This document shows, in pieces, positions 30,665-51,942 of a stretch of DNA of 51,942 bases. The notes below the pieces were generated by a model. It was not told the origin of the DNA, ran no database searches, and saw only the letters and a list, made by a program, of their open reading frames with translations. Source of the DNA: Frankiales bacterium (lineage in GTDB: Bacteria; Actinomycetota; Actinomycetes; Mycobacteriales; Geodermatophilaceae); NCBI GenBank assembly GCA_025465155.1, contig JAODNJ010000321.1:1-51942 (forward strand), read 5' to 3'. How positions within the stretch are numbered: the first letter of the stretch is position 1; every line of letters starts with the position of its first letter. Position numbers and translations under genes: made by a program.

Positions 30665-30668
30665 GCGG

Positions 30669-34262: not shown

Positions 34263-34297
34263 CGGCCCGGCGGCGGTGAGCACGGGGGTGCCTGTCA

Positions 34298-34303
34298 TAT
34301 ACT
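34298..34303 (+). promoter_or_regulatory. Candidate -10 for the mhpC/hpaHI operon
   Basis: TATACT at 34298-34303 is a good -10 within CTGTCATATACTGC, the only A+T island in the 192-nt gap 34263-34454. No clear -35 is visible. CTGTCA (34292-34297) and TGTCAG (34307-34312) form an imperfect dyad across it, so an activator or repressor site is possible. The leader would be about 145 nt. Nothing else was seen in the gap. Confidence 0.4.
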
Positions 34304-34454
34304 GCGTGTCAGAAACCGCCACGACGCCGCCGCCGGAAGACCGGCTGGGATCGACGAACGCGCTGCTCAGCCGCGCATCGCCCGGGCGATGGAACATGTA
34401 CACACTGGTCAGCGCAGGGATCGTCAGCAGCACGATGGTGAGCGAGGAGAGTTC

Positions 34455-35345
34455 GTGACCGCGGAAGTGAACGCCGAGGAGCCGTACCGCAGCATCTGGG
34501 GTTTCCTGCGGGAGCTCGAGTTCCGGCAGGGATACCTGGAGGCCGACGGCGTCCGCACCCGGTTCGCCGAGGCCGGCAGCCCTGACGCACCCGCACTTCT
34601 GCTCCTGCACGGCACCGGGGGCCACTGGGAGACCTTCGCCCCGAACCTGACCGCACTGTCGGAGCACTTCCGCTGCATCGCCGTCGACATGGTCGGAAAC
34701 GGGTTCTCGGAGAAGCCCGACCACGACTACGAGATCCCGGTGTACGTGCGGCAGGTGCTCGCCGTCCTCGACGCCTTCGGGGTGCAGCGCGCGCACGTGG
34801 CCGGCATGTCGCTGGGCGCCTGGGTGACCGCCCGGCTGGCGATCGACGCCCCCGAGCGGGTGGACCGGCTGATCCTGATGTCGCCGGCCGGGATGATCGC
34901 GACGGCGTCCAACATGGCTCGCATCCGGGCCGAGCGCACCCGCGCGGTCCAGGAGGCCGACTGGGCATCGATCAAGGCGATGTTCGACCACCTCATGGCC
35001 GACGAGCGCAACCGGCTGGACGACCTCGTGGCGCTGCGCCAGGCGGTCTACCAGCGGCAGGACACCCGCGAGACGATCGACCACCTGTTGATCCTGCAGG
35101 ACGCCGAGGCGCGCGAGCGCAACCTCATCCCCGAGAAGGAGTGGCGGTCGATCGCCGCCCCGACGCTCGTGGTGGCCTCGGGCAAGGACGTCTCGGAGTA
35201 CCAGAGCACCGCGCGGCAGGTGGCCGAGCTCATCCCTGACAGCGAGGTGCTCGAGATGCCCGGCGTCAAGCACTGGCCGCACTTCGAGGACCCGGAGACC
35301 TTCAACCCGGCGGCCGTCCGGTTCCTCCTCGGCGCGGAGAAGTGA
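34455..35345 (+). CDS. Alpha/beta hydrolase, probable meta-cleavage product C-C hydrolase
   Basis: 296 residues from the GTG at 34455, which has GAGGAGA upstream. HGTGG (52-56) is the oxyanion region, S119 in GMSLG the nucleophile, D245 in ASGKD and H273 in VKHW complete the triad; the HW pair matches MhpC/BphD. These enzymes split the carbon chain opened by an extradiol dioxygenase into a 2-hydroxydienoate and an acid. It heads the operon with HpaH and HpaI homologues that would use the dienoate, which supports the role. The matching MhpB-like enzyme is encoded 31 kb away. Confidence 0.87.
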
Positions 35346-38121: not shown

Positions 38122-39147
38122 GTGGATCTGCTTCCTTCCCGCGACCAATTGGAGCTGACGGCCGCGGCCGCGGAGTTCTTCAGCGAGCAGGTGCCCATCG
38201 CCGGCATCCGCGCCCGGCGGGACGAGCCGGCGTCGCTGGACACCAAGACGTGGCTGGCCGGCGCCGAGCTGGGCCTGCTCGGGCTCTCGGCCCCCGAGGA
38301 GGTGGGTGGCTCCGGCCTGGGCCTCGACGACGAGGCGCTGGTGTTCCGCGAGATCGGCCGGGCGCTGGCCCCCGGACCGTTCCTCGGCACGGTGCTGGGT
38401 GCTCGTCTGGCCGTCCTGGCCGGCCGGCCGGATCTCGCGGCGTCGATGGTGGACGGGCGCACCGCGGTGGCGCTGGCCGAGCTCCGGGACGGCTCGGTCG
38501 GCCCGGAGGGGCTCGGCGGGCGGCTGGACGTCCTGGATCCGGAGGGCAGCACCTACGTGCTGGTCCTCGGCGAGGACGGCGCCGCGCTGGTCGAGACCGC
38601 CGCGCTGGGCGACCTCGAGCCGCTGGCCGGCATCGACCCGGGCACCCGGCTGGCCTCGGCGACCGTCGGTGCTGCCTCCGCCGCCTGCTGGCTGCCGGCC
38701 GACCAGGAGCCGCTGCGGCTGCGGGCCCTCGTCCTGGCCTCGGCCATGCTCGTCGGCATCGCCGAGGCCGTGCGGGACCAGGCCAGCGACCACGCCAAGA
38801 ACCGGGTGCAGTTCGGCCGGCCGATCGGGGTCAACCAGGCGATCAAGCACCGGTGCGCGGACATGGCGGTCGCGGCCGAGGCCGCGCTGTCGCAGACGAT
38901 GTTCGGTGCCGTGGCTCTGCAGTCGGGCCGCGCGGACCGGGAGTTCCAGGTCCTGGCCGCCAGGATCGTCAGCAGCCGCGCCGCTCTGGACGGCGCGAGC
39001 GCGAACATCCAGATCCACGGGGGGATGGGCTACACCTACGAGCACGACGCCCACCTGTACCTCAAACGGGCGCAGGTGCTCGACCACCTGTTCCTCCAGC
39101 GGACCGACGCCCTCGGCGGACTGCTCGCGCAGGCGGCGGCCCAGTGA
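38122..39147 (+). CDS. Acyl-CoA dehydrogenase-like, smaller subunit of a hetero pair
   Basis: 341 residues, GTG start 20 nt after the larger subunit. It keeps the ACAD fold (EVGGSGLGLDDEALVFREIGRAL, KNRVQFGRPIGVNQAIKH, IHGGMGYTYEHDAHLYLKRA), but the central substrate-binding part is shortened and no obvious catalytic Glu is seen at either usual place. That is what is found in the non-catalytic partners of FadE/ChsE heteromers in actinobacteria, where the partner contributes FAD binding. Confidence 0.9.
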   Translation: MDLLPSRDQLELTAAAAEFFSEQVPIAGIRARRDEPASLDTKTWLAGAELGLLGLSAPEEVGGSGLGLDDEALVFREIGRALAPGPFLGTVLGARLAVLAGRPDLAASMVDGRTAVALAELRDGSVGPEGLGGRLDVLDPEGSTYVLVLGEDGAALVETAALGDLEPLAGIDPGTRLASATVGAASAACWLPADQEPLRLRALVLASAMLVGIAEAVRDQASDHAKNRVQFGRPIGVNQAIKHRCADMAVAAEAALSQTMFGAVALQSGRADREFQVLAARIVSSRAALDGASANIQIHGGMGYTYEHDAHLYLKRAQVLDHLFLQRTDALGGLLAQAAAQ

Positions 39148-40325
39148 CCGCCCTCACGGGCCGGGTCGCGGTGCCGAAGGGCCGGGGCGCCGTCATCGCC
39201 GGGGTGGCGCTGGCCGACCCCGGCGCGGTCGCCACCAACCCCTACGGGCTCATCGCCCAGGCCTCGCTGCGGGCGCTGGCCGACGCAGGGATCTCGCCGG
39301 GCGAGGTGGACGGGCTGGGCTCCACCGGCCTGGGCACGCTGCCGCCGATAGACGTCGCGGAGTACCTCGGTCTGCGCCCCCGCTGGATCGACTCGACGTC
39401 GGTGGGCGGGGCCTCGTGGGAGGTCATGGTCGCCCACGCGGCGGACGCGATCGCCGCCGGGCACGCCGACGTCGTCCTGCTCACCTACGGGTCGACGGCG
39501 AAGTCGGACCTGCGCCGCGGCCTGCGGACGGCGAACCTCAACTGGGGCAGCCGCGGCCCGCTGCAGTGGGAGGCGCCGTACGGGCACACCCTGATCGCCA
39601 AGTACGCCATGGCCGCCCGCCGGCACATGTACGAGTACGGCACCACCATCGAGCAGCTCGCCGAGGTGGCGGTCTCCGCCCGCTACAACGCCGCGGACAA
39701 CCCCGAGGCGGCCTACCGGGACCCGATCACCGTCGAGGACGTCCAGTCCGGCCGGATGATCGCCGACCCCTTCACCAAACTGCACTGCTGCATCCGTTCC
39801 GACGGCGGAGCGGCGGCCGTCCTCGTCTCCGAGGAGCGGGCGAGGGATCTGGCGGGCACGCCCGTGCACGTCCTCGGCGCCGCTGAGAACGTCTCGCACG
39901 TCTCGACCAGCCAGTGGCCCGACCTCACCACCGGTCCGGCGTCGATCACCGGGCCGCTGGCCTTCCAGCGCGCGGGCGTGCGCCCGGAGGACATCGACGT
40001 CTGCGAGGTCTACGACGCCTTCACCTACATGCTGCTCATGACGATGGAGGACCTCGGGTTCTGCAAGAAGGGGGAAGGCGGCCCGTTCGTCGCCGACGGC
40101 CGGCTCCGGCTCGGCGGCGCGCTGCCGACCAACACCGACGGCGGCGGCCTCTCGGCCATCCATCCGGGGCAACGTGGCCTGTTCCTGGTCGTCGAGGCGG
40201 TGCGGCAGCTGCGCGGGGAGTGCGGCCCGCGCCAGGTGCCGGACGCCGAACTGGCCTGCGTGAGCGGTACCGGCGGCTGGTTCTGCTCCAGCGGCACCCT
40301 GATCCTCGGAACGGAGCGGCGATGA
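39144..40325 (+). CDS. Thiolase-fold protein without nucleophilic Cys (Ltp2/SCP-x-like)
   Basis: 393 residues, GTG in a GTGA overlap. The fold resembles SCP-x thiolases and lipid-transfer proteins: SVGGASWEVMVAHAADAI (86-103) replaces the usual Cys-Ala-Ser-Gly nucleophile loop with Gly-Gly, while the C-terminal NTDGGGLSAIHPGQRG and GGWFCSSGTLIL segments remain. Cys-less relatives such as Ltp2 act as retro-aldolases on beta-hydroxyacyl-CoAs and need a DUF35 partner. A DUF35 gene is present at 45197-45622 on the other strand. Tyr-rich segments (YGHTLIAKYAMAARRHMYEYG) could supply the base. Confidence 0.85.
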   Translation: MTALTGRVAVPKGRGAVIAGVALADPGAVATNPYGLIAQASLRALADAGISPGEVDGLGSTGLGTLPPIDVAEYLGLRPRWIDSTSVGGASWEVMVAHAADAIAAGHADVVLLTYGSTAKSDLRRGLRTANLNWGSRGPLQWEAPYGHTLIAKYAMAARRHMYEYGTTIEQLAEVAVSARYNAADNPEAAYRDPITVEDVQSGRMIADPFTKLHCCIRSDGGAAAVLVSEERARDLAGTPVHVLGAAENVSHVSTSQWPDLTTGPASITGPLAFQRAGVRPEDIDVCEVYDAFTYMLLMTMEDLGFCKKGEGGPFVADGRLRLGGALPTNTDGGGLSAIHPGQRGLFLVVEAVRQLRGECGPRQVPDAELACVSGTGGWFCSSGTLILGTERR

Positions 40326-41842
40326 GCACCCCGCCCCTGGGCGACGACTGCGCCTCGTTCGACGAGCTGCTCCGGGCCGCGGCCGGCGCCTACGGGGACC
40401 GTGAGGCCTACGTCGAGTCCGGCGGCGGCCGGCTCAGCTTCGCCGAGTGGGACCGGGCGTCCGACGGCCTGGCCGGGGCGCTCGCCGAGCGGGGTGTCCG
40501 CGCGGGCGACGTCGTCGCGCTGATGCTGCCGTCCTCGATCGACTACGCCGTCTGCTACGCCGCGCTCGCGCGGCTCGGCGCGGTCACCTCCGGACTGAAC
40601 ACCCGACTGGGCCCGCGCGAGGTGGCGGCCGTCCTGGAGCGGGCGGCGCCCGCGCTGGTCGTCCGCGACCCGGCCGCTCGGCTGCCGGAGGTGCCCCCGA
40701 CCTTGCCCGTGCTGGACCGGACCGACCTGCCGGGCCTCTACGCGCACCCCGGCCTGGGGGAGCAGCGGCCCGCGCCGGCACCGGAGGACCCGGTCGTCAT
40801 CATCTGGACCAGCGGGACGACCGGGCTGCCGAAGGGCGCCTGGTTCGACGTGCACAACCTCAAGGCCGCCGCCCACTCGGCGGGGGTGATGAGCACGCCG
40901 GGCGACCGGCGCCTGGTCGCCACGCCCTTTGCGCACGCCGGCTACATGTTCAAGCTGTGGGACCAGCTCGCCTGGGGAGTCACCGCGGTGATCCCTCCGT
41001 CGCCGTGGTCGGCCGCGGAGATGGCCCGCGTCATGCGCGACGAGCGCATCTCGGTGGTCGGTGGCGTGCCGACCCAGTGGGCGAAGCTGCTGGAGCAGCC
41101 CGACGCCGAGCGGCTGCCCCACCTGCGGATCGGCATCGCCGCGACCGCGCCCGCGCCGCCCGATCTCGTCGAGGCGGTCGCCGAGCGCATCGGGGTGCCG
41201 CTCGTCGTCCGCTACGCCATGACCGAGTCCCCGACGATCGCCGGCACCGAACCCGACGATCCGCCGGAGGTCCAGTTCCGCACCGTCGGCCGCCCCCAGG
41301 AGGGGATGGAGGTCGTCGTCACCGACGGCGCCGGCACGCCGCTGCCCCCCGGCGAGGTGGGCCGGGTGCGGGTACGCGGTGGCTGCGTCATGCGGGGGTA
41401 CTGGAACGACCCCGAGCGGACCGCCGAGGTGCTCACCGACGACGGGTGGCTCATCAGCGGGGACCTCGGGCGGTTCACCCCCGAAGGGAACCTCGTGCTG
41501 GTGGGCCGCGCCGGCGACCTCTACATCAGGGGCGGCTACAACGTGCACCCGCTCGAGGTGGAGAACGTGCTGGCCGAGCACCCGGCCGTCCGCAGGGCGG
41601 CCGTGGTCGGCTCGCCGGCGCCGGTCATCGGGGAGATCGGGGTCGCCTTCGTGGTGGCCGCCGACCCCGACAGCCCGCCCGAGCTGATCGAGCTCCGGGA
41701 GTGGGTGCGCGAGCGGCTGGCCGACTACAAGGCGCCGGACCGCCTCGTCCTCGTCGACGACCTGCCGGTGACCGGCATGCTCAAGGTCGACCGCGACGCG
41801 CTGCGCCGCGACGCCGAGGCCCTGGAGCCGATGCGACGCTGA
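40322..41842 (+). CDS. AMP-forming acyl-CoA synthetase
   Basis: 506 residues, ATG in an ATGA overlap with the thiolase-like gene. The ANL-superfamily P-loop TSGTTGLPKG is at 163-172, followed by YAMTES, GWLISGDLGRF, the hinge GRAGDLYIRGGYNVHPLEVE, and the C-terminal catalytic lysine in VTGMLKVDR. The enzyme activates a carboxylic acid to its CoA ester with ATP. As the last gene in a side-chain beta-oxidation set, it most likely activates the side-chain acid of the pathway substrate or the acid left after ring cleavage. Confidence 0.93.
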   Translation: MSTPPLGDDCASFDELLRAAAGAYGDREAYVESGGGRLSFAEWDRASDGLAGALAERGVRAGDVVALMLPSSIDYAVCYAALARLGAVTSGLNTRLGPREVAAVLERAAPALVVRDPAARLPEVPPTLPVLDRTDLPGLYAHPGLGEQRPAPAPEDPVVIIWTSGTTGLPKGAWFDVHNLKAAAHSAGVMSTPGDRRLVATPFAHAGYMFKLWDQLAWGVTAVIPPSPWSAAEMARVMRDERISVVGGVPTQWAKLLEQPDAERLPHLRIGIAATAPAPPDLVEAVAERIGVPLVVRYAMTESPTIAGTEPDDPPEVQFRTVGRPQEGMEVVVTDGAGTPLPPGEVGRVRVRGGCVMRGYWNDPERTAEVLTDDGWLISGDLGRFTPEGNLVLVGRAGDLYIRGGYNVHPLEVENVLAEHPAVRRAAVVGSPAPVIGEIGVAFVVAADPDSPPELIELREWVRERLADYKAPDRLVLVDDLPVTGMLKVDRDALRRDAEALEPMRR

Positions 41843-41845
41843 GCG

Positions 41846-42760
41846 TCAACGGCCGAGGGCGACCGCGACCTCGTGCATGAACAGCCGCAGGGTCTCCGGC
41901 GACCCGTGGTCGGAGAAGCGCAGCACGAACATCTCCACGCCCCGCGCTCGCTCGGCCTGCAGCGCAGCTGCCAGCTCGTCCGGCGTCCCGACCAGCGGGT
42001 CGCCCCAGGCGGCCGGCGGCATGCGGCGGGCCACCTCGGCCGCGACGCTGTCGCGCTGCGCCGACGTGGCGGCCAGGCCGATGGCGTACTGCGCGGAGAT
42101 CCGGGCCCGTCCGCGCAGCGGCGCCAGCTCGTCCAGCCGGTGCCGCGCAGAACCCAGGCAGTTCCACCAGTCGGCATGCCGGGCCACCAGCGGCATGGTG
42201 AGCGTGACGCCGGCGCCGCCGATGTGGACCGGCACGCGGGCCTGCACCGGTCGCGGGAGGCCGCACGCGCCGCGCAGCCGGAAATGGCGGCCGTCGTGGT
42301 CGAACGGCTCGCCGCTGAACATCAGCTCGACGATCTGCAGCGTCTCGTCCAGAGCCTCGGCCCGTGCCCGCCGGGTGGCGCCGCCGAACCCGAACGCCTC
42401 GAGCTCCTCGTCCACCGAGCCCCAGCCGAGCCCCAGGTCCAGCCGGCCGCCGCTGATCACATCGACCGTCGCCGCCATCTTGGCCAGGAGGGCGGGGTGC
42501 CGGAACGGGTTGCAGCCCACGAGGTGACCGAGGCGAATGCGGGAGGTCGCCCCCGCCAGCGCCGTGAGCAGGGTCCAGCTCTCCAGGGTGTCGACGTGCG
42601 GCGCACCGGGTGTGGCCAGGTGGTCCATCAGCCAGAAGCCGTCGAAGCCGGCGTCCTCGGCGGCCCGAGCCCGCTCGACCATCGTGGCGACGTCGGTGCG
42701 GAACTGGGGAACGTGCACGCCGAAGAGGGGACTGCCGGGTGGCGCGACTGTCAGACTCAC
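41846..42760 (-). CDS. LLM class F420-dependent oxidoreductase
   Basis: 304 residues, GTG start without a clear ribosome site. It shows the luciferase-like pattern FGVHVPQFRTDVATMVERARAAEDAGFDGFWLMDHL, RIRLGHLVGCNPFRHPALLAKMAATVDVISGGRLDLGLGWG and an HIGGAG phosphate-binding turn, which are usual for actinobacterial F420 enzymes (TIGR03619-like). It converges on the acyl-CoA synthetase gene with a 3-nt gap and is divergent from the first tandem-TetR regulator, so it may be that regulator's target. Reaction unknown. Confidence 0.88.
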   Translation of the reverse strand: MSLTVAPPGSPLFGVHVPQFRTDVATMVERARAAEDAGFDGFWLMDHLATPGAPHVDTLESWTLLTALAGATSRIRLGHLVGCNPFRHPALLAKMAATVDVISGGRLDLGLGWGSVDEELEAFGFGGATRRARAEALDETLQIVELMFSGEPFDHDGRHFRLRGACGLPRPVQARVPVHIGGAGVTLTMPLVARHADWWNCLGSARHRLDELAPLRGRARISAQYAIGLAATSAQRDSVAAEVARRMPPAAWGDPLVGTPDELAAALQAERARGVEMFVLRFSDHGSPETLRLFMHEVAVALGR

Positions 42761-42773
42761 TCGGGAAACGGTA

Positions 42774-42793
42774 GTTCAGTCAACGCATTGAAC
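42774..42793. promoter_or_regulatory. Dyad GTTCA-N10-TGAAC
   Basis: A 20-bp element with 5-bp inverted arms (GTTCA 42774-42778, TGAAC 42789-42793) lies just upstream of the LLM gene in the 125-nt divergent region before the tandem-TetR gene. The position fits a repressor operator. Confidence 0.4.
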
Positions 42794-42799
42794 CAAGAA

Positions 42800-42819
42800 G
42801 GACCGCGATATGCGGGTCC
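42800..42819. promoter_or_regulatory. Quasi-palindrome with ATAT centre
   Basis: GGACCGCGATATGCGGGTCC is a near-perfect inverted repeat (one base shift in the arms) of the size TetR dimers bind. It lies 67 nt before the tandem-TetR start, 7 nt beyond the GTTCA dyad. A TACCAT -10-like hexamer at 42874-42879 ends 6 nt before the GTG, so the regulator mRNA may be leaderless. Confidence 0.4.
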
Positions 42820-42885
42820 TCCCACCGGGGGAACGGGTCGGGCAGGAAGTGACCGCGGTGTCAGAGTCGCCGGTACCATCGACCG

Positions 42886-44232
42886 GTGAGCAGCGAGGAG
42901 ATCCTGCGTCGCCCCAGCTACGGGTCGAACAGCCGGGTGGTCGGTGCCCGCGGCGCCCAGACCCGCCGGCACATCCTCGCCGTGGCGCTGCAGCTGTTCG
43001 GTGAGCGTGGCTTCCACGACGTCGCCGTCGACGACCTCGCCCGCGCGGCGGGGGTGTCCCGGGCGACGCTGTACCAGTACTTCGAGAGCAAGGACGAGAT
43101 CTTCGCCGAGCTCCTGGAGGAGTGCGGCGGCACGCTGATGCGGCTGATCCGCCGGCTGGGCCCGCTCGGCCCCACGCTGCAGGGCTTCGACAACCTGCAC
43201 TGGTGGCTGGGGGAGTGGGCCTGGGTCTACGACCGCTACGCCACCATGTTCGCCCAGTGGGACCACATCGAGACCTCCGACACCGCCTTCCGGCCGATGG
43301 TCACCGGATTCGTCGACGCCTATGCCGGGCGGATAGCCGAGCGGCTCACGGCGGCCGGGTTCGCCGGGATCGAGGGGGTCGACACCGCGGCCGCGCTGCT
43401 GCTCGTCGTCCACCGGTTCAACTACCTGCGGCACAGCGGCCGATCCTCGGCCCTGACGGTCGACGAGATGGTCGACGGGATGGCCGTCGTGCTGCAGCTG
43501 GTGCTCTTCCCGGACACCCCGCCGGAGGTGCTCGCCAGCCAGGGATCGCGGTCGGCCGGGCTGCCCGCGTCCTGGACCGCGGACGTCCCGTCGCCGCGGC
43601 CGGGTCCCGACCGCTTCGCCGGGCTGCGCGACCGGGCTCGGGCCACGGTCCGCCAGCTGCTGGACTCCGCCGCGCGGACCTTCGCCGCCCGCGGGTTCGC
43701 CGGCTCCAACCTCGACGCGGTGGCCGCCGGCGCGGGCGTGGCCCGGGCGACGCTCTACAAGTACTTCACCGACAAGCACGACGTCCTGGCGGCGCTCGCC
43801 GAGGAGGCGCGCGACGACGTCGTGTCGGCGGCGCAGCGCTTCGGCGCGATCGCCCGCAGCCCGCACGCGGGCACCGAGCTGCGCCGGTGGCTGGACGACC
43901 TGGTGGCGCTGTCCGCGCGGCACGCCGGCGTGCTGCGCGTCTGGGTGGAGCGTCAGCCCGATGACCCGCGCGTGCAGGAGCTCGGGGAGGAGGTCACCCG
44001 GGCCACGCGCGCGGCGGTCGCCGGGGCACTCACCAGCGTGCAGCGGCCCTATCCGCTCGACCTGCACGTGGCGGGGCTCGTGCTGATCGCCGTGCTGGAG
44101 CGCATCCCCACGGGGCTGGTCCAGCAGAGCCGGGAGGTGCCCCGGGCGGAGGTCGTGGAGACCATGGCGACGTTCATCGAGCGGGGCCTGCTCGCCGGCA
44201 CTCCCGCCTCCGAGGCCGCCGCCGCGAGCTGA
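42886..44232 (+). CDS. Tandem double TetR-family regulator (first copy)
   Basis: 448 residues, GTG start, no Shine-Dalgarno. The chain holds two TetR units. The first DNA-binding domain is at about 25-74 (VDDLARAAGVSRATLYQYFESKDEIF) with its ligand domain to about 215. A Pro-rich linker follows (about 216-245), then a second DNA-binding domain at 250-303 (LDAVAAGAGVARATLYKYFTDKHDVLAAL) with its own helical domain to the end. Both helix-turn-helices look intact. One chain could thus act like a built-in dimer. It stands between a divergent LLM gene and a convergent SDR gene. A paralogue begins at 50654. Confidence 0.92.
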   Translation: MSSEEILRRPSYGSNSRVVGARGAQTRRHILAVALQLFGERGFHDVAVDDLARAAGVSRATLYQYFESKDEIFAELLEECGGTLMRLIRRLGPLGPTLQGFDNLHWWLGEWAWVYDRYATMFAQWDHIETSDTAFRPMVTGFVDAYAGRIAERLTAAGFAGIEGVDTAAALLLVVHRFNYLRHSGRSSALTVDEMVDGMAVVLQLVLFPDTPPEVLASQGSRSAGLPASWTADVPSPRPGPDRFAGLRDRARATVRQLLDSAARTFAARGFAGSNLDAVAAGAGVARATLYKYFTDKHDVLAALAEEARDDVVSAAQRFGAIARSPHAGTELRRWLDDLVALSARHAGVLRVWVERQPDDPRVQELGEEVTRATRAAVAGALTSVQRPYPLDLHVAGLVLIAVLERIPTGLVQQSREVPRAEVVETMATFIERGLLAGTPASEAAAAS

Positions 44233-44273: not shown

Positions 44274-45200
44274 TCAGCCGCCCATGCGCAGGCCGGGCGC
44301 CCGCGTGCGGAAGACGTCCTTGGCCAACAGGTCGCCGAGGGTCGCGGCGTCCCAGCGCTTGCCGCCGTTGGAGATCGACGGGCCCTTCCGCCAGCCCTCG
44401 GCCAGCTCGACGAGCTCGCCCATCGCACGGACCACCTGACCGCTGACGTGCCCGGCCTCCGGGCTGGCCAGCCAGGCCACGACCGGGCTGGCCAGCGAGG
44501 GGTCCTTCGGGTCGAACTCGTCCTCGGGCCGCTCGTCGGGCTCGGGCACCGCCGCGGTCCCGCCCATCGTGGCCGACAGGCGGGTGATGCCACCGGGGCT
44601 GATCGCGTTGACGGTGACGCCCAGCCGCGCCAGCTCCAGGCTCAGCGTCTGGGTCAGCCCGACGATCGCCGCCTTCGCCGTCGCGTAGTTGGTCTGGCCG
44701 AAGTTGCCCCAGAGGCCCGCGCCGGAGGTGGTGTTGATGATCCGGCCGTACACCCGGCCGTCCTCGGCGGCCTTGGCCGCCGCGCGCCAGCGGATCGCCG
44801 TCGCGCGGCTGGTCAGCCAGGTGCCGCGCACGTGCACGCGCATGACCAGGTCGAAGTCGCCGGCGCTCATGTTCCAGATCGCCTTGTCGCGGACGATGCC
44901 GGCGTTGTTGACCAGGATGTCGAGGCGGCCGAAGTCGTCGAAGGCGCGGCCGATCATCTCCTCGACCTGGGCCTCGTCGCCCACGTCGGCGTAGTCGGCC
45001 ACGGCCTTGCCCCCGCGGCCGCCGATGATGTCGACGACGCGATCGGCGTCGCGGCCGGAGCCCTCCCCGGACACCGACGTCCCCAGGTCGTTCACGACGA
45101 CGGTGGCGCCGTGCTTGGCCAGTTCCAGCGCGTGGCCGCGGCCGATGCCGTGGCCGGCGCCCGTGACCAGCGCGATCTTGCCTTCGAGCAGGCGGGTCAT
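44274..45200 (-). CDS. SDR oxidoreductase, 3-hydroxyacyl-CoA dehydrogenase-like
   Basis: 308 residues from the ATG at 45200 (ATGA overlap with the DUF35 gene). TGAGHGIG (13-20), D38, NNAG (98-101), S159, Y172 and K176 are present. The long NAD-binding region and the GQTNYATAKAAIVGLTQTLSLELARLGVTVNAISPG block resemble the dehydrogenase part of multifunctional enzyme 2 and actinobacterial beta-oxidation SDRs. It also has a C-terminal tail of about 50 residues. Together with the enoyl-CoA hydratase of the same operon it would perform the hydration and second oxidation of a side-chain acyl-CoA. Confidence 0.9.
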   Translation of the reverse strand: MTRLLEGKIALVTGAGHGIGRGHALELAKHGATVVVNDLGTSVSGEGSGRDADRVVDIIGGRGGKAVADYADVGDEAQVEEMIGRAFDDFGRLDILVNNAGIVRDKAIWNMSAGDFDLVMRVHVRGTWLTSRATAIRWRAAAKAAEDGRVYGRIINTTSGAGLWGNFGQTNYATAKAAIVGLTQTLSLELARLGVTVNAISPGGITRLSATMGGTAAVPEPDERPEDEFDPKDPSLASPVVAWLASPEAGHVSGQVVRAMGELVELAEGWRKGPSISNGGKRWDAATLGDLLAKDVFRTRAPGLRMGG

Positions 45201-45622
45201 TGCTTCTCCTCCGGGACGGCCGGGCGGAACACCGGCGCCGTGATGTCGTCGTCGAGTTCGCGGAAGGCCACCCGCAGCGGCATGCCGATCCGCAGGTCCT
45301 CGGTGGCGCAGTCCACGATGGTGGTCATGATGCGGGGGCCCTCCGCCAGCTCCACGAGGGCGGCTACGTAGGGCAGCCGGTCGCGGAACGGCACGAGATC
45401 GTTCATGTACACCGTCGAGTGGGTGTAGAGGGTGGCCCACCCGCTGGCCTGCTCCCAGGTGACCTGGTCGCTCCAGCAGAACGGGCAGAACGGGCGGGGG
45501 TAGTGGTGCGCGCGGCCGCAGCTGCCGCACCGGGCCACGAGGAAGCGGTCCTCCTTCGCCGCGTCCCAGAAGGGCCGGCTGTCGTCGTCGATCGTGGGCA
45601 GGTCGCCCCGGGGAGCGGTCAT
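45197..45622 (-). CDS. Zn-ribbon/OB-fold protein (DUF35)
   Basis: 141 residues from the ATG at 45622, with AAAGGAG upstream. A rubredoxin-like zinc ribbon is formed by C32, C35, C46 and C49 (CGSCGRAHHYPRPFCPFC), followed by an OB-fold (WATLYTHSTVYMNDLVPF, IGMPLRVAFREL). DUF35 proteins bind acyl-CoA and partner thiolase-fold enzymes, for example the ChsH2/Ltp2 retro-aldolase or acetoacetyl-CoA synthases. The only thiolase-fold protein in the window (39144-40325) lacks its Cys, so the two may form one enzyme although their genes are 5 kb apart on opposite strands. Confidence 0.9.
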   Translation of the reverse strand: MTAPRGDLPTIDDDSRPFWDAAKEDRFLVARCGSCGRAHHYPRPFCPFCWSDQVTWEQASGWATLYTHSTVYMNDLVPFRDRLPYVAALVELAEGPRIMTTIVDCATEDLRIGMPLRVAFRELDDDITAPVFRPAVPEEKQ

Positions 45623-45644
45623 GGCTGCCGTCGGCTCCTTTCGC

Positions 45645-46457
45645 TCAGTAGCCGCGGTACTCGGGCGGGCGGCGCTCGACGAACGAGCGGATCCCCTCGC
45701 CGGAGTCGTGGGCGCCGGACTGGATCTCCTGTGCCATCCCCTCGGCGAGGTAGGCCCCGGCACGGTCGGTGTCGGGGGAGTCGTTGAGCAGCCGCTTGGT
45801 CAGCGCGATGGCGCTCGTCGCGGCCGAGGCCAGGCGGACGGCCAGCTCGTCGGCGGTCGCCGTCAGCCGGTCGGCCGGCACGACCCGGTTGACCAGGCCG
45901 AGGGCGTAGGCCTCGTCGGCGGCCAGCGGATCGCCGAAGAAGACCAGCTCCTTGGCCTTCTGCATGCCGATCCGCCGGGGAAGCAGGTAGGCGCCGCCGC
46001 CGTCGACGACCAGGCCGCGGCGGACGAAGGACTCCACGAACGTAGCGTCCTCGCTGGCGACGACGAGGTCGGCGGCGTAGGCCAGGTGCGCGCCGATGCC
46101 GGCGGCCGGGCCCTGCACGACGGCGATGACCGGCTTGCCGCAGTCGAGGACGGCCGCGATGAGCCGCTGGGCGCCGCCCATGATCTTGCGCATCGTGTCG
46201 CCGACGCGCTTGCCCTCGCCGGCCGACCGGCTGCCGGCCATCGCGCGGACGTCGGCGCCTGCGCAGAAGTGCCGCCCGTTCGCGGCGATGACGACCACCC
46301 GCACCGACGGGTCGGCGTCGGCGTCGGTCAGCAGGTCGATCAGCGCGTTGCGGTCGTCCGGCCGCAACGCGTTGGCCGCCTCCGGCCGGTTCAGGGTGAT
46401 CCGCCGGACGCCGTCGCGGTCCTCGGACAGGACCGCCTGCTCCTCCCCGGCGCTCAC
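45645..46457 (-). CDS. Enoyl-CoA hydratase/isomerase family protein
   Basis: 270 residues, GTG in a GTGA overlap with the P450 gene. Oxyanion-hole motifs are FCAGADVRAM (64-73) and GPAAGIG (116-122). The active-site segment is VESFVRRGLVVDGGGAYLLPRRIG, with D152 where many isomerase or hydratase relatives have an acid, while the place of the first hydratase Glu appears to be Phe144. It may therefore be an isomerase or an atypical hydratase. It belongs to the ALDH-ADH-P450-hydratase-DUF35-SDR operon. Confidence 0.88.
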   Translation of the reverse strand: MSAGEEQAVLSEDRDGVRRITLNRPEAANALRPDDRNALIDLLTDADADPSVRVVVIAANGRHFCAGADVRAMAGSRSAGEGKRVGDTMRKIMGGAQRLIAAVLDCGKPVIAVVQGPAAGIGAHLAYAADLVVASEDATFVESFVRRGLVVDGGGAYLLPRRIGMQKAKELVFFGDPLAADEAYALGLVNRVVPADRLTATADELAVRLASAATSAIALTKRLLNDSPDTDRAGAYLAEGMAQEIQSGAHDSGEGIRSFVERRPPEYRGY

Positions 46458-47728
46458 GAGGCGGCCACCGTCGTCGGCGTGAACCGGGCCTGGAGGTGCT
46501 TGATGCCGTGCAGCAGGTTGGAGCGCAGCAGCTGCGGTTCGCCGACCGCCTCGATGTCGGGCAGGAGCTCCAGGAGCATGGGGAAGACCACCGAGAGCTC
46601 GAGCCGGGCCAGGTTGGCACCGAGGCAGAAGTGCGGCCCCGGGGCGCCGAAGCCCAGGTGCGCGTTGGGCCGGCGGCGGATGTCGAACCGCGTGGCGTCG
46701 GGGAAGACGTCCTCGTCCTGGTTGGCCGAGCGGTACCAGAGGACCACCTTGTCGCCCTGGTTGAACTCCTGCTCGCCGAGGCGGACGCCGTCGTTGGTCA
46801 CGGTGCGCCGGAAGTGCAGCACCGGCGACGCCCAGCGGACCATCTCCTCGACGGCCGGCCCGGTGTACGTCGCCGGGTCGCTGCGCCACAGTTCGCGCTG
46901 GTCGGGGAACCGGGTCAGCGCGAGCAGGCCGTGGGAGATCGCGTTGCGCGTCGTCTCGTTGCCCGCGCCCACGAGCAGGATGAAGAAGCGGGCCATCTCC
47001 GCCGGGGTCAGCACCTCCTCGCCGCGGGCGGCGACGAGCTTGGTGATCAGGTCGTCCCGGGGCTCGGCGATGCGCGCCTCGGCGAGCTCGGACAGCAGGG
47101 CGGCCAGACCCTCGCCGGCGGCCTCGACGGCGGCGGCGACTGCGCGCGGGCTCTGGTCGGGCACGTACTCGGGGTCGCTGGCCCCCATGATGATGTTGGT
47201 CTGCTCGAAGATGTACTGCTCGTGCTCGGCCGGGATGCCCAGCATGTTGTTCACGATCCGCAGCGGCAGCGGCGCGGCGACCGCCGTCGTGAAGTCGATC
47301 TCGCCCTGCTCGGCGACCGAGGCGATGAGTGCCCGGGTGGTGCGGGCGACGTCCTCGCGCAACACCTCCAGCGACCGGGGGGTGAAGCCGCGGTTCACGA
47401 TCTTGCGCAGCCGGGCGTGCTCCGGGTTGTCCATGTCGATGATCGAGCCGCGGTACTCCCGCAGCCGCGGGGGCTGGTCGAAGATCTGGGTCCCCTCCCC
47501 GGAGCAGAAGTCCTCCTCCCGGCGGCTGACCTCCTTGACGTCCTCGTACCGGGTCAGCGCCCAGAAGCCGTCGTGTCGTGGGCTGCCGGGCTCGTGGCGG
47601 GCCGGGACGAACGGGCGGGGGTCCTCGGCCCGGAGCCGCGCGAAGAACGCGTCGCGCTCCTCGACCGGGTGGGTCCACCAGGACAGGTCGTCCAGTTCGC
47701 GGACGGGCCGCTGCTCGGTGCTGGTCAT
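46454..47728 (-). CDS. Cytochrome P450, CYP125/CYP124-like
   Basis: 424 residues, ATG overlapping the ADH stop. The I-helix is GAGNETT (254-260), ExxR is E295/R298, and the heme loop GFGAPGPHFCLGANLARLEL carries C368. WWTHPVEERDAFFARLR, DMDNPEHARLRKIVNRGFTPRSL and the RSANQDEDVFPDATRFDIRRRPNAHLGFG block recall P450s that oxidise the terminal carbon of sterol or branched-lipid side chains. The adjacent NDMA-type ADH and ALDH would carry the alcohol to the acid. The exact CYP family is not certain. Confidence 0.92.
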   Translation of the reverse strand: MTSTEQRPVRELDDLSWWTHPVEERDAFFARLRAEDPRPFVPARHEPGSPRHDGFWALTRYEDVKEVSRREEDFCSGEGTQIFDQPPRLREYRGSIIDMDNPEHARLRKIVNRGFTPRSLEVLREDVARTTRALIASVAEQGEIDFTTAVAAPLPLRIVNNMLGIPAEHEQYIFEQTNIIMGASDPEYVPDQSPRAVAAAVEAAGEGLAALLSELAEARIAEPRDDLITKLVAARGEEVLTPAEMARFFILLVGAGNETTRNAISHGLLALTRFPDQRELWRSDPATYTGPAVEEMVRWASPVLHFRRTVTNDGVRLGEQEFNQGDKVVLWYRSANQDEDVFPDATRFDIRRRPNAHLGFGAPGPHFCLGANLARLELSVVFPMLLELLPDIEAVGEPQLLRSNLLHGIKHLQARFTPTTVAAS

Positions 47729-48864
47729 TCGCTCGCCTCCCGGCCGAGGGCGGGGTAGGTGAGCACCCCGCGGAGGAAGTTGCCGTTGCGCATGTCCGCG
47801 AAGCCGTCGTTGATGCCTTCGAGCGGGTAGGTGTTGGACACCACCGCGTCCAGGTCCACCAGCCCCGAGGACCACAGCTCCAGCAGTTTGGGGATGTCGG
47901 CACGGGGGTTCGCCGAGCCGTAGAGCGTCCCGACGATCTGCTTCTCGTTGAGCGTCAGGTCCATCATGCTGATGCTGATCGAGCGCTCGGCCAGGGGATG
48001 GATGTTCGTGACCACCACCCGGCCGCGCTTGGCGGTCATCGCCAGCGCCTTGTGCATCAGCGCGCCGTCGCCGCGGCCCATGGTGCAGATGAAGCGGTCG
48101 GCGCCCCGGTGCCAGGTGGCGTCGGCAACCACGGCCGGCGCCTCGTCCCACGAGCCGGCCACATGGGTGGCCCCCATGGCCAGCACCTGCTCCTTCTTCG
48201 ATGCCGCCGGTTCGATCGCCACGATCACGCGGGCGCCGGCCAGCTTCGCGCCCTGGATGGCCGCCGCCCCGATTCCGCCGACCCCGGCGACCACGACGGT
48301 GTCGCCCGGTGCCACGTCGGCGGCGTAGACGGCGGAGCCCCAGCCGGTGACGAAGCCGCAGCCCAGCAGGCATGCGCGGTCCAGGGGGACGGCCGGGTCG
48401 ATCCGGACGCAGCTGGCCTCGTGCACCACCGTGTGGTGGGCGTAGGACCCGATCAGGCAGGAGGTGGCGAGGTCCTGGCCGCGGCCGTGGTGGCGCGCGG
48501 TGCCGTCGGCGATCTGCCGGCCGGTGTAGAGCCGGGCGCCGAGGTCGCACAGGCTCTGGTGGCCCGTCGAGCAGGACGGGCAGCGCCCGCACGAGGGCAT
48601 GAAGCTGAAGACGACGTGGTCGCCGGGGGCCACCGAGGTGACCTTGTCACCCACCGCCTGCACGACACCGGCGCCCTCGTGGCCGCCGATGCACGGCAGA
48701 TGGAAGGGCATGTCGCCGGTGATCAGGTGCTCGTCGGAGTGGCACATCCCGGAGGCGTGCAGCTCCACGAGCACCTCCTCCGGCCCCGGTGGGTCGAGCT
48801 CGATCGGCTCCACCGACCACTCCGGGTCGTCGCGGTTCCACAGCACCGCTGCCAGCGTCTGCAC
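47725..48864 (-). CDS. NDMA-dependent-type zinc alcohol dehydrogenase
   Basis: 379 residues, GTG start with a strong AGGAGG eight bases upstream. Catalytic zinc ligands C41 (GMCHSDEH) and H62/E63 (GGHEG), structural cysteines 92, 95, 98 and 106, and Rossmann motif VAGVGGIG are present. LPCIGGHEGAGVV and the LYTGRQIADGTARHH insert are typical of actinobacterial NDMA-dependent MDR enzymes, which keep a tightly bound NAD and often need mycofactocin as acceptor. No mycofactocin genes are in the window. It probably oxidises the P450-made alcohol. Confidence 0.9.
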   Translation of the reverse strand: MQTLAAVLWNRDDPEWSVEPIELDPPGPEEVLVELHASGMCHSDEHLITGDMPFHLPCIGGHEGAGVVQAVGDKVTSVAPGDHVVFSFMPSCGRCPSCSTGHQSLCDLGARLYTGRQIADGTARHHGRGQDLATSCLIGSYAHHTVVHEASCVRIDPAVPLDRACLLGCGFVTGWGSAVYAADVAPGDTVVVAGVGGIGAAAIQGAKLAGARVIVAIEPAASKKEQVLAMGATHVAGSWDEAPAVVADATWHRGADRFICTMGRGDGALMHKALAMTAKRGRVVVTNIHPLAERSISISMMDLTLNEKQIVGTLYGSANPRADIPKLLELWSSGLVDLDAVVSNTYPLEGINDGFADMRNGNFLRGVLTYPALGREASE

Positions 48865-48895
48865 GAAGAAAACCTCCTGGGAACGAGGACGGGGG

Positions 48896-50356
48896 TCAGG
48901 CGGCCGGCAGGACGACGGACTGCGGCTCGAGGAACCCCGCCAGTCCCTCGGGGCCGCCCTCGCGGCCGATGCCGGACCGGCGCATGCCGCCGAAGGGACT
49001 GAGCAGGTCCACCGGTGCGGCGGAGTTCACGGCGACCGAGCCGGCGACGAACCGTGCGGCGACGGCGGCCCCGCGGGCAGGGTCGGCCGTCCAGACGCTT
49101 CCGGACAGGCCGTACTCCGTGCTGTTGGCGATGGCGACGCCCTCGTCCAGCGAGTCGTAGGGCAGCACGACCGCCACCGGCCCGAAGACCTCCTGCTGCG
49201 CGATCGGCGCGTCGGGGGCGACGTCGGCGAGCACGGTGGGCTCGAGGAACCACCCGCTGGGCTGGTCGGCGGGCCGCCGTCCGCCGGTGACCAGCCGGGC
49301 GCCCCCGGCCAGCGCGCCCTCGACGGCAGCCTCCACGCCGGTGCGTGCCGCCGCCGAGATCAGCGGGCCGATGTCGGTCGCCTCGTCGGCGGGGTCGCCC
49401 ACGCGCAGACCGGCCGCGGCGGCGCCGAGCGCGTCGACGACCTCCGCGTAGCGGGCCCGCGGGACGAGGATGCGGGACTGCGCCATGCAGATCTGCCCGG
49501 TGCCGGCCATGGCGCCGTCGACCAGTTGCCGGACGAGGGACTCGTCGAGGACGACGTCGTCGAGCAGGAGGGCGGCGGCCTTGCCGCCCAGCTCGAGCGT
49601 GCAGCGGCGCACGTCCCGGCCGCACACCTCGCCGATCCGCCGGCCGACCGAGGTCGAGCCGGTGAAGCTCACCTTGTCCACCCCGGGATGCGACACGAGG
49701 TGCTCGCTGGCCTGCGCGCCGGCCGGCACGATGTTGAGGACGCCGGGCGGCAGGCCGGCCTCGACCGCCGCCTCGGCGAAGGCGAGCACGGCCAGCGGGG
49801 CGTCGGGGGAGGGCTTGAGCACGACGGTGCAGCCGGCGGTCAGCGCAGGTGCGAGCTTGAGCGCGGCGGTGAACAGCGGGGCATTCCACGGGACGACCGC
49901 GGCGACGACCCCGACCGGGACCTGCCGCACCCGCACCTCGTTGCCCAGCAGCCCGGTTCGCGTCTGTTCCCAGGGGAAGTCGCCGCCGATCGAGCGATAG
50001 GCCCGGAGCACACCCAGCGCCGTGGCGACCTGCGCGCCGCGCGCCCAGCGGAGGGGCGAGCCGACCTCGGCGCTCACCGTGGCGGCCAGTTCGTCGCTAC
50101 GGGCCCGCAGCGACGTGGCCAGCCGGGCGACCGCCTCGATCCGTTCCGCGGGCGGCAGGTCGGGCCACGGCCCGGTGTCGAAGGCCGTCCGGGCGGCCGC
50201 GACGGCCGCGTCGACGTCGGCGGGGGAGGCGTCGGGCACAGTCCCGACGGGCAGCTCCGACGCCGGGGAGTGCACCTCGATGACGCCGGTCCCGGCCGGC
50301 CGCTGCCAGCGCCCGGCGATGAACAGCCCGTCGTAGTCCGGCAACGCCTCGCTCAT
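48896..50356 (-). CDS. Aldehyde dehydrogenase
   Basis: 486 residues from the ATG at 50356; an in-frame ATG at 50428 lies at or before the probable transcription start and encodes an Arg-rich extension. N158 (VPWNAP), E255 (LELGGKA) and C290 (TGQIC) form the active site, with QEVFGPV and LSPFGGMRRSGIGREGG further on. It is close to the aldehyde dehydrogenase at 31823-33292 in its middle segments (ETR/QTR-T, VRVRQVPVGVVAAVVPWNAPLF), so the two may be paralogues. It is first in the P450/ADH operon and likely finishes oxidation of the side-chain end to an acid. Confidence 0.94.
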   Translation of the reverse strand: MSEALPDYDGLFIAGRWQRPAGTGVIEVHSPASELPVGTVPDASPADVDAAVAAARTAFDTGPWPDLPPAERIEAVARLATSLRARSDELAATVSAEVGSPLRWARGAQVATALGVLRAYRSIGGDFPWEQTRTGLLGNEVRVRQVPVGVVAAVVPWNAPLFTAALKLAPALTAGCTVVLKPSPDAPLAVLAFAEAAVEAGLPPGVLNIVPAGAQASEHLVSHPGVDKVSFTGSTSVGRRIGEVCGRDVRRCTLELGGKAAALLLDDVVLDESLVRQLVDGAMAGTGQICMAQSRILVPRARYAEVVDALGAAAAGLRVGDPADEATDIGPLISAAARTGVEAAVEGALAGGARLVTGGRRPADQPSGWFLEPTVLADVAPDAPIAQQEVFGPVAVVLPYDSLDEGVAIANSTEYGLSGSVWTADPARGAAVAARFVAGSVAVNSAAPVDLLSPFGGMRRSGIGREGGPEGLAGFLEPQSVVLPAA

Positions 50357-50432
50357 TTCCCGTTCGTGGTCCGCGCCGCGTCGCGCGTGCGCCCGGGGGT
50401 CGGTGCGCCGGGCCCCAGCCGTGGACATCCTG

Positions 50433-50461
50433 ATTCTGACAATCCGTGCACTTTATTGCAA
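50433..50461 (-). promoter_or_regulatory. Promoter of the aldehyde dehydrogenase operon
   Basis: On the minus strand TTGCAA (50461-50456) and CAGAAT (50438-50433) are separated by 17 nt, giving a fair -35/-10 pair in an A+T-richer patch. Transcription would start near 50425, leaving about 70 nt of leader before the ATG at 50356. The remaining divergent region to 50653 has no gene. Confidence 0.45.
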
Positions 50462-50507
50462 CCGCCCCGGTCCGCCCGCGTGCCCCGCCCGGAGCGTCGA
50501 TGCCTGT

Positions 50508-50536
50508 GGCATTCGGACCTGGGCCCGGGCATTCCG
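50508..50536. repeat. Direct repeat GGCATTCGG / GGCATTCCG
   Basis: Two 9-bp copies with one mismatch start 20 bp apart (50508 and 50528), about two helical turns, in the divergent region upstream of the second tandem-TetR gene. A direct repeat on the same DNA face is the kind of site a regulator with two DNA-binding units in one chain might use. Confidence 0.45.
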
Positions 50537-50653
50537 ATGGTAGGTTCTGACGTTCCGTCCGCGTAGCGGCCGCGGGGCCCGAGCCGGAGGACGCGACCGT
50601 GCAGAGGTCGTCGTGGGCGCGGGGGCCCGCGCCCGAGAGGAATGAGCACCCGG

Positions 50654-51942
50654 GTGACCGACGGCGAGATCGTGCGGCGGCAGGGGTACTGGCCGTCCAG
50701 CCCCGTCGTGGGCAGCCGCGGAGCGCGCACGCGGGAGCGGATCGTGACCGAGGCGCTGCTGCTGTTCGAGCGGCAGGGTTTCCGGGCGGTCTCGGTGGAC
50801 AGCATCGCGCGGGCGGCCGGCACGTCGCGCGCCACGCTGTACCAGTATTTCGAGAGCAAGGAACGGATCTTCCTGGAGCTGATCGAGGAGTGCGGCTCGG
50901 CGCTGCGGCGGGTCGCCCGCCGGATCGGTGCCCTCGGCCCCACCGAGGCCGGGTTCCAGAACCTGCACTGGTGGCTCGGCGAATGGGCGTGGGTCTACGA
51001 CAAGTACGCCACCGTGTTCGGGCAGTGGGCCGACCTGGAGTCCTCGGGCACGGGCATACGCCGCCTGGTGGGCGGGTTCGTCCAGTCCTACAACGCCGGG
51101 ATCGCGGCCCGGCTGGAGGAGAGCGGGCTGTCCGGCCTCGGCCCGGACGAGGCGGCGATGGTTCTCACGAGCACGGTGCACCGATTCAACTACTTCCGGC
51201 ACCGCCGGGCCGGCCTGCCGCCGGTGGAGGAGTGCGTCGACGGCCTCGCCGTCGTCCTGCAGCTGGTCCTGTTCCCCGGGACGCCGGCCGCGGCCTTCGC
51301 CGGCCTGCCGGCGGTCTCGGGGTCCGCGGCGGGCCGGCGGACCCCGATCGCGCGGCGCCCCCCACCGGTGGTCCCGGTGGTCCCTGTGGCCCAGCTGAGC
51401 CCACGCGCGGCGGCGACCGTGCGGGAGCTGGTCGAAGCCGGCGCCCGCCTGTTCGCCGACCGCGGCTACCACGGAACGAGCGTCGACGACGTCGTCGCCG
51501 CGGCCGGCTTCGCCCGCACGACCTTCTACAAGTACTTCGACGAGAAGTCCGACCTGCTGCTGCGGCTCACCGAAGAGAGCCGCCAGGGGGCGGAGCAGCT
51601 CAGCCGCGACCTGACCGCCCTGGCTCCCGGCCCCGGGCTGAGCGAGCAGCTGCGCGAGTGGCTGGGCCGCTACCTGCCGTTCTACCGCAGATACCTCGGC
51701 GTCTTCCGCGCCTGGGTCGAGGGCGGCACGAACGATCTCCGGGTGACCGCACTGGCCGAGCAGGCCGACGACGGCATGGCCGCGGCGGTACACGCCGTCC
51801 TCGCCCGGGTCCGTCGTTCCTATCCGCTGGACCTCGACGTCGCCGCGGTCGTGTGCATGGCCGTCCTCGACCGGCTGCCGGAGTACGTGGAGGTCGCCGG
51901 AATCCCCGCGAGCGACGAGCGGATCGTGGAACTCATGGCCGC
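50654..51942 (+). CDS. Tandem double TetR-family regulator (second copy, cut by window end)
   Basis: At least 429 residues; the frame is still open at the window end. The GTG at 50654 aligns exactly with the start of the first copy (DGEIVRR against SEEILRR) and has GAGAGGA 12 nt upstream, while the ATG at 50642 touches that site directly. Both TetR units are present: first DNA-binding domain at about 25-74 (IARAAGTSRATLYQYFESKERIF), Pro/Arg-rich linker, second DNA-binding domain from about 258 (VDDVVAAAGFARTTFYKYFDEKSDLL). NLHWWLGEWAWVYD(K/R)YAT and VVLQLVLFP are shared with the first copy. It is divergent from the ALDH/ADH/P450 operon, its likely target. Confidence 0.9.
   Translation, partial: MTDGEIVRRQGYWPSSPVVGSRGARTRERIVTEALLLFERQGFRAVSVDSIARAAGTSRATLYQYFESKERIFLELIEECGSALRRVARRIGALGPTEAGFQNLHWWLGEWAWVYDKYATVFGQWADLESSGTGIRRLVGGFVQSYNAGIAARLEESGLSGLGPDEAAMVLTSTVHRFNYFRHRRAGLPPVEECVDGLAVVLQLVLFPGTPAAAFAGLPAVSGSAAGRRTPIARRPPPVVPVVPVAQLSPRAAATVRELVEAGARLFADRGYHGTSVDDVVAAAGFARTTFYKYFDEKSDLLLRLTEESRQGAEQLSRDLTALAPGPGLSEQLREWLGRYLPFYRRYLGVFRAWVEGGTNDLRVTALAEQADDGMAAAVHAVLARVRRSYPLDLDVAAVVCMAVLDRLPEYVEVAGIPASDERIVELMA

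Follow-up and report, generated by a model that had tools for sequence, protein, structure and literature searches.

TetR units normally homodimerise, and the usual gene switch of this kind needs two identical copies. The stretch of DNA analyzed here, 51,942 nt in length and referred to as the window, carries a gene, P1, whose product appears to hold two such units in one chain. This raises the question of whether both units are genuine, where such a protein may come from, and which operator it would be expected to read.

Architecture of the P1 protein

P1 is a member of the TetR family featuring two complete units in one chain (double-TFR architecture), as a previous sequence-only reading had maintained for the region 42886-44232. 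The gene is a single open frame, with no internal stop, and the TetR_N model (PF00440) matches its product twice, both times above cut-off (105.3 bits for the whole protein, with a cut-off of 24). The TLYxYFxxK hallmark, which the same reading had pointed out in both units, is indeed found twice, as TLYQYFESK at residues 61-69 of the N-unit and as TLYKYFTDK at residues 289-297 of the C-unit. The two units can be aligned to each other without gaps over 191 residues, with 26% identity and an E value of 2e-11, and are therefore homologous along their whole length. Prediction of the structure of the full chain, suggested at the time as a check, returned nine TetR-type helices for each unit (pLDDT 88.2, pTM 0.87). 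No NCBIfam model reached its cut-off for P1 among the 25 matches listed of 26: the best one, MftR (TIGR03968), scored 94.9 bits versus an equivalog cut-off of 224.9, and assignment of P1 to a named NCBIfam regulator was rejected. The features of the locus are collected in Table 1.

Table 1. Position of P1, its domains, the predicted operators and neighboring genes in the window
Feature	Coordinates	Strand	Remarks
P1, double-TetR regulator	42886..44232	+	448 aa; GTG start, TGA stop at 44232
P1 N-unit, DNA-binding domain	42973..43113	+	residues 30-76; TetR_N 70.9 bits; recognition helix SRATLYQYF
P1 N-unit, ligand/dimer domain	43114..43530	+	conserved block G100..LHWWLGEWAW..D116.Y118
P1 inter-unit linker, variable	43531..43629	+	residues ~216-248
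P1 C-unit, DNA-binding domain	43657..43797	+	residues ~258-304; TetR_N 50.2 bits; recognition helix ARATLYKYF
P1 C-unit, ligand/dimer domain	43798..44205	+	poorly conserved
P2, second double-TetR regulator	50642..51942	+	49% identical to P1; open at contig end
Predicted operator GAAGTGACCGCGGTGTCAGAGT	42846..42867	+	P1/LLM-oxidoreductase divergent region, 18 bases before P1 start codon
Second TCTGACA core, weaker candidate	42749..42755	-	P1/LLM-oxidoreductase divergent region; one half-site only
Predicted operator AAAGTGCACGGATTGTCAGAAT	50433..50454	-	between aldehyde dehydrogenase and P2
Second predicted operator	50544..50565	-	between aldehyde dehydrogenase and P2; pattern match
Predicted operator GTCATATACTGCGTGTCAGAAA	34294..34315	+	upstream of alpha/beta hydrolase gene at 34455; left half poor
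Acyl-CoA dehydrogenase, thiolase, acyl-CoA synthetase	38122..41842	+	neighboring catabolic genes
Luciferase-like (F420 LLM class) oxidoreductase	41846..42760	-	divergent from P1
SDR, ChsH2-type OB-fold protein, enoyl-CoA hydratase, P450, NDMA-dependent alcohol dehydrogenase, aldehyde dehydrogenase	44274..50356	-	conserved block

The P1/P2 family

In the host genome, where 41 TetR_N matches were detected (E up to 0.001), only two open reading frames contain a double match, P1 and its paralogue P2. The latter is completed to its stop codon by another contig of the same genome, C342 (L070), which overlaps the end of the window exactly over 127 bases; as to its start, relatives favour GTG at 50654 over 50642.

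A scan of genome contigs detected 45 loci: 30 match both units, with an open linker, and 15 are partial. Of these 30, L027 and L040 are truncated where their contigs end, and L033 begins 13 bases from such an end. Hosts of the 30 loci include Pseudonocardia, Frankia/Parafrankia, Streptomyces, Streptosporangiaceae, Acidiferrimicrobium, Mycobacterium and other Actinomycetes. Members of the same type are also present, with 97-98% coverage, in 7 plasmid records, 5 of which from Rhodococcus. Within the host's order, 6 of the 200 genomes sampled contain a match; no such double TetR was found in the 25 other genomes of the host's genus. The double-TetR family is real, and not an artefact.

Recognition helices were compared in 25 proteins, i.e. 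P1, P2 and those from 23 of the 30 loci, near-duplicates and cut ones being omitted. In the N-unit S58, R59, Y63, Q64, Y65, F66 and K69 are kept in all of them, and the same is true for R287, T289, Y291, F294 and K297 in the C-unit: the key DNA-contact residues, whose loss in one unit had been considered in the sequence-only reading, are retained in both. At position 286 of the C-unit A is found in 21 proteins, S in 3 and G in 1, at position 292 K in 21 and R in 4. The two units therefore present consistently different residues to DNA.

Ligand domains are unequally conserved: over 32 aligned rows, positions at least 90% conserved account for 31% of the N-unit domain versus 7% of the C-unit one. 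P1 also has an N-terminal arm of the RRxSYGPxSPxVGxRG type and the LHWWLGEWAW block, both found in most members of its family. Four remoter double TetRs (L060, L061, L076 and L081), 23-31% identical where measured, feature units which fall within the same N and C clades described below; an N-terminal RRxPY...G arm is retained in L060 and L081.

Comparison with Mce3R and other TetR proteins

The sequence-only reading knew of no well-characterised protein of this kind, but one is available: the structure of Mce3R from M. tuberculosis (Rv1963c), a single-chain double TetR, has been solved together with its operator (PDB 9b7y; PMC11667970). The authors conclude for a single-chain, dimer-like fold, and describe an asymmetric, non-palindromic operator of 25-27 bp, a complex in which two single chains pair, each holding its own duplex, and a single ligand-binding domain; a prediction of 204 putative double TetR proteins in Actinomycetes is also cited (PMC11667970).

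Mce3R is the top match of P1 in a PDB sequence search (E 3.2e-14, and 5.7e-21 with a profile); in the profile search both Mce3R units find their best alignment in the C-unit. The same entry, 9b7y, is the first Foldseek match, extending over the whole chain, for the models of both P1 (TM 0.57/0.64, 441 columns) and P2 (TM 0.62/0.69, 417 columns; model pLDDT 88.9, pTM 0.86). The other 49 matches listed for each model cover 173-217 columns, about one unit, and EthR and FasR are among the next ones for P1. For P1 and P2 alike the rmsd to Mce3R is 8.7 A: the placement of parts in the two models therefore differs from that of DNA-bound Mce3R.

P1 resembles Mce3R in having two TetR units per chain, with differing recognition helices; the non-palindromic operator, lipid-type targets and autoregulation of Mce3R (PMC11667970) are predicted for P1 as well. 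Differences are found as well. The sequence match is mainly within the DNA-binding domains, the N-terminal arm and the LHWWLGEWAW block being features of P1's own family; Mce3R-like units do not group with P1-family ones (AU p 0.014 and 6e-6), and loci found by Mce3R similarity are without the P1-family motif (1 match in six loci). Ordinary TetR/AcrR proteins, such as EthR, FasR, RutR and MftR, share with each P1 unit the TetR fold and its helix-turn-helix, but are single units of about 200 residues, where P1 has two per chain.

Two-unit, Mce3R-like proteins of 377-422 aa are encoded by Rhodococcus plasmids (L101, L102, L104, L105 and L106), and 20 of the 26 matching records are from this genus. 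In these five stretches they lie mostly near acyl-CoA, CoA-ligase or lipid-transfer genes. A literature search found no paper on the P1/P2 lineage or its operator, the matches being mostly unrelated word matches.

Ancestry of the two units

Two trees were built from separate units. The first one used the 32 distinct ORFs among 62 with a double unit and all but 4 of 33 single ORFs, and Mce3R was represented by partial sequences only: a placement of Mce3R-type units apart from the P1 family was favoured, with joining not rejected (AU p 0.28, 0.26 and 0.14). The second tree, from which eleven rows were removed as redundant and to which the L100 pair was added, contains 28 each of N-units, C-units and single TetRs, plus five full-length Mce3R-like plasmid double TetRs, 40-50% identical to the N-unit of Mce3R, which stand in for Mce3R itself. 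L103, also Mce3R-like, was left out, its gene being unannotated.

In this second tree, all P1-family N-units fall in one clade (99/91) and all C-units in another (99/90), Mce3R-like N and C units being placed elsewhere. Joining with the Mce3R type is rejected by the AU test for N-units (p 0.0139), for C-units (p 6.2e-6) and for all doubles (p 8.2e-5). As far as these trees indicate, P1-family N- and C-units do not form clades with their Mce3R-type counterparts, and the rejection of the joining trees makes an independent origin of the two lineages probable: the single-chain double-TetR architecture probably arose at least twice, in this family apart from the Mce3R type.

A tree holding P1-family N- and C-units as one clade is not rejected (AU p 0.30), and internal duplication in the P1 lineage would be compatible with it. 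Since the single TetRs L011 and L097 fall inside the larger clade containing both N and C units (96/84), duplication is only one option, and a fusion of two related TetR genes seems equally possible.

A lopsided DNA motif

The DNA motif associated with the P1 family is lopsided, not palindromic, and may be written approximately as GTGAC-N6-GTCAGAA or, alternatively, as GTRnAC-N5-GTCAGAA. In the promoters, orthologous to each other, of aldehyde dehydrogenase and P2-type regulator genes the common elements are TCTGACA or TCTGACR-N4-GT. This four-base form was derived from orthologous promoters and upstream regions: counts in L019, L023-L026, L028 and L034, from which it was drawn, are therefore not independent, while L098-L100 and L107 are motif loci independent of its derivation. 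A first form, with five free bases, had a single match in the window, no better than chance, and was discarded.

Unconstrained EM on 138 intergenic regions found the motif in about 45 of them, with a log-likelihood of 301.6, versus 199.7 for a forced palindrome. The free model gains from its additional parameters and from the choice of strand in any case, and sets with a palindromic truth were therefore simulated: gaps in the 12 simulations ranged from 15.7 to 34.1, versus 101.9 observed, and a palindromic operator was rejected as the better model. In a reduced set of 86 regions the gap was 65.7. Of the two half-sites, the left one is weak, with about 4 bits versus 13, and varies in register by one base, but it still carries signal in the EM model. 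The 6+6 core of one site, at 5899 in L039, is a palindrome, and a few sites in L098, L099 and L107 score on both strands.

The core pattern TCTGACRNNNNGT was counted in 21 of the 30 double-TetR loci, leaving out near-duplicate, overlapping or cut ones, and yielded 32 matches versus 3.5 expected from shuffles; in the 15 other loci 1 match was found versus 1.9 expected. An exact match to the core is absent from 6 of the 21 loci (L035-L039 and L041): weaker sites were called by EM in five of them, L037 being outside the EM input. According to our own gene caller, each of the 39 motif sites listed for the window and 18 loci either is intergenic or straddles a start codon. In plasmid loci, outside the derivation of the matrix, 32 of 34 matches above 11 bits lie outside listed genes (8 of 8 in L098, 11 of 11 in L099, 8 of 9 in L100 and 5 of 6 in L107), counts for which the gene table is incomplete, L098-L100 are orthologous and some matches are the two strands of one site. 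The single match in the six loci found by Mce3R similarity refers to 38 kb, versus 83 kb for the L098-L100 and L107 stretches.

Throughout the 5.2 Mb host genome TTCTGACR-N4-GT has 13 matches, versus 3 for a reversed control pattern. Five of the 13 are in C177 and C342, corresponding to 1.1% of the genome (p 1.8e-7, for a pattern partly drawn from this locus); C342 carries two further motif sites, at about 254 and 1580. Within the window, TCTGACR has 7 occurrences, below the 13.6 that shuffles would predict, and only its position is unusual: two occurrences are at gene ends and five are intergenic, one in 34262-34455, two in 42718-42886 and two in 50356-50654. The full core pattern has 3 matches versus 0.74 expected, a number reached by 4 of 100 shuffles.

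Sites are at times paired in the same orientation, 67 bp apart in four Pseudonocardia loci (4946/5013 in L024, 4879/4946 in L025, 1037/1104 in L026 and 4355/4422 in L028); in the window the spacing is 111 bp (50435/50546). Such pairs could allow looping by pairs of chains.

Catabolic surroundings

The window is a large cluster of aromatic/hydrocarbon catabolic genes. It encodes two Rieske dioxygenases, a LigB dioxygenase, a FAD-binding monooxygenase-type protein, an HpcH/HpaI aldolase and acyl-CoA enzymes, along with P450s at 46454 and, as recognized by eye, at 7092 and 17524; an NDMA-dependent alcohol dehydrogenase scores above its cut-off. The conserved block at 44274..50356 is the probable regulon.

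The part of this block running from enoyl-CoA hydratase through P450 and alcohol dehydrogenase to aldehyde dehydrogenase adjoins P2-type regulators in seven loci (L023-L026, L028, L029 and L034), either complete or truncated where the stretch ends, L026 showing aldehyde dehydrogenase alone. It also adjoins P1-type regulators in L030 and L033 and, in part, in L032. Neighbors of double TetRs on Rhodococcus and Streptomyces plasmids are alcohol and aldehyde dehydrogenases, F420 oxidoreductases and CoA enzymes. At 29594-31826, 11 kb from P1, the window carries a luciferase-like oxidoreductase and an APH-type phosphotransferase; the same pair lies close to a double TetR in L030, L032, L040, L098-L100 and L107.

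The lack of double TetRs in 25 same-genus genomes, together with the tetranucleotide profile, faintly suggests that the cluster may have been acquired, or misbinned. Correlations of the window are 0.82 and 0.87 with Pseudonocardia loci, versus 0.79 and 0.83 with 14 loci of its own genome, and those with Frankia loci (0.82 and 0.90) are as good or better.

Proposed mode of action

We propose, with a probability of about 0.7, that P1 represses both its own gene and a hydrocarbon/aromatic catabolic cluster, working as a single-chain pseudo-dimer. This reading is supported by the intact units, their conservation in the family, the fold match to Mce3R, the motif and the catabolic neighbors, from which we infer binding of the motif by P1 and P2, repression, pseudo-dimer packing, duplication and the class of ligand. 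The N and C units, perhaps products of an old internal duplication, would pack together as subunits do in a conventional TetR dimer, one chain presenting two non-identical recognition helices, with S58 and Q64 in the N-unit and A286 and K292 in the C-unit. Both helices would read one lopsided operator of about 20 bp, in either form of the motif. Candidate operators are located in the promoters of P1 and of the 34455 operon, and in that serving P2 and, divergently, the aldehyde dehydrogenase block; a pathway compound, or a CoA ester, may release P1 from them.

The sequence-only reading had envisaged a pseudo-dimer with either two different half-sites or two ligands. The former is supported, by inference, by the Mce3R fold match, the differing recognition residues and the non-palindromic motif; two ligands are not favoured, because of the unequal conservation of the ligand domains (31% versus 7%) and of the single ligand-binding domain described for Mce3R (PMC11667970).

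Two chains might, in principle, assemble symmetrically, N with N and C with C, as two TetR dimers on separate palindromic sites. Each unit has a full TetR helix set, TetR units normally homodimerise, and sites are often paired, at 67 bp (L024, L025, L026 and L028) or, in the window, at 111 bp. However, the associated motif is non-palindromic, and the pairs are two copies of one lopsided element; the whole-chain match to Mce3R, for which the authors conclude for a single-chain fold (PMC11667970), also makes this arrangement rather unlikely.

It is unlikely, too, that the motif belongs to another regulator of the cluster, the double TetR binding something else. Further regulators do occur in such clusters, such as a GntR-like gene recognized by eye at 8544-9236, but the motif recurs next to double TetRs of Pseudonocardia, Frankia, Mycobacterium, Streptomyces and Rhodococcus whose neighboring genes vary, and in several loci it falls within the regulator's own upstream region or start codon.

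The poorly conserved C ligand domain and the weak left half-site could also be read as signs of a C-unit which is a decaying duplicate, serving as a dimerisation or ligand domain and leaving DNA recognition to one unit only. This seems quite unlikely, as R287, T289, Y291, F294 and K297 are kept in 25 of 25 proteins and the left half-site contributes to the EM model.

Finally, the joining of two TetR genes by an assembly or sequencing error, for which the sequence-only reading had indicated the region 43510-43610, is refuted by the same two-unit protein, with an open linker, in 30 further loci, by 7 plasmid records and by P2, which has the same layout, and deserves practically no credit.

Around the proposal of P1 as a single-chain pseudo-dimer, a broader scenario may be drawn only tentatively, at slightly less than even odds. 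Pseudo-dimers would have evolved at least twice in Actinomycetota, in the P1 lineage by internal duplication and not by joining of distant TetR genes; recognition helices and operator would have drifted apart together, resulting in a family-wide lopsided GTGAC-N6-GTCAGAA which controls mobile catabolic clusters and is sometimes shared by two paralogues.

Significance

Mce3R had already made known proteins of this kind: what is new here is an apparently separate lineage, along with its predicted lopsided operator. The P1 family, including dozens of homologues, adds to Mce3R another case, to all appearances independent, in which a homodimeric repressor has become a single chain, and the breaking of operator symmetry, once the two halves evolve separately, becomes directly testable with it. 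For actinobacterial catabolic clusters of a type that recurs, part of the regulon can also be predicted, and the family offers a natural single-chain scaffold for what are predicted to be two different half-sites.
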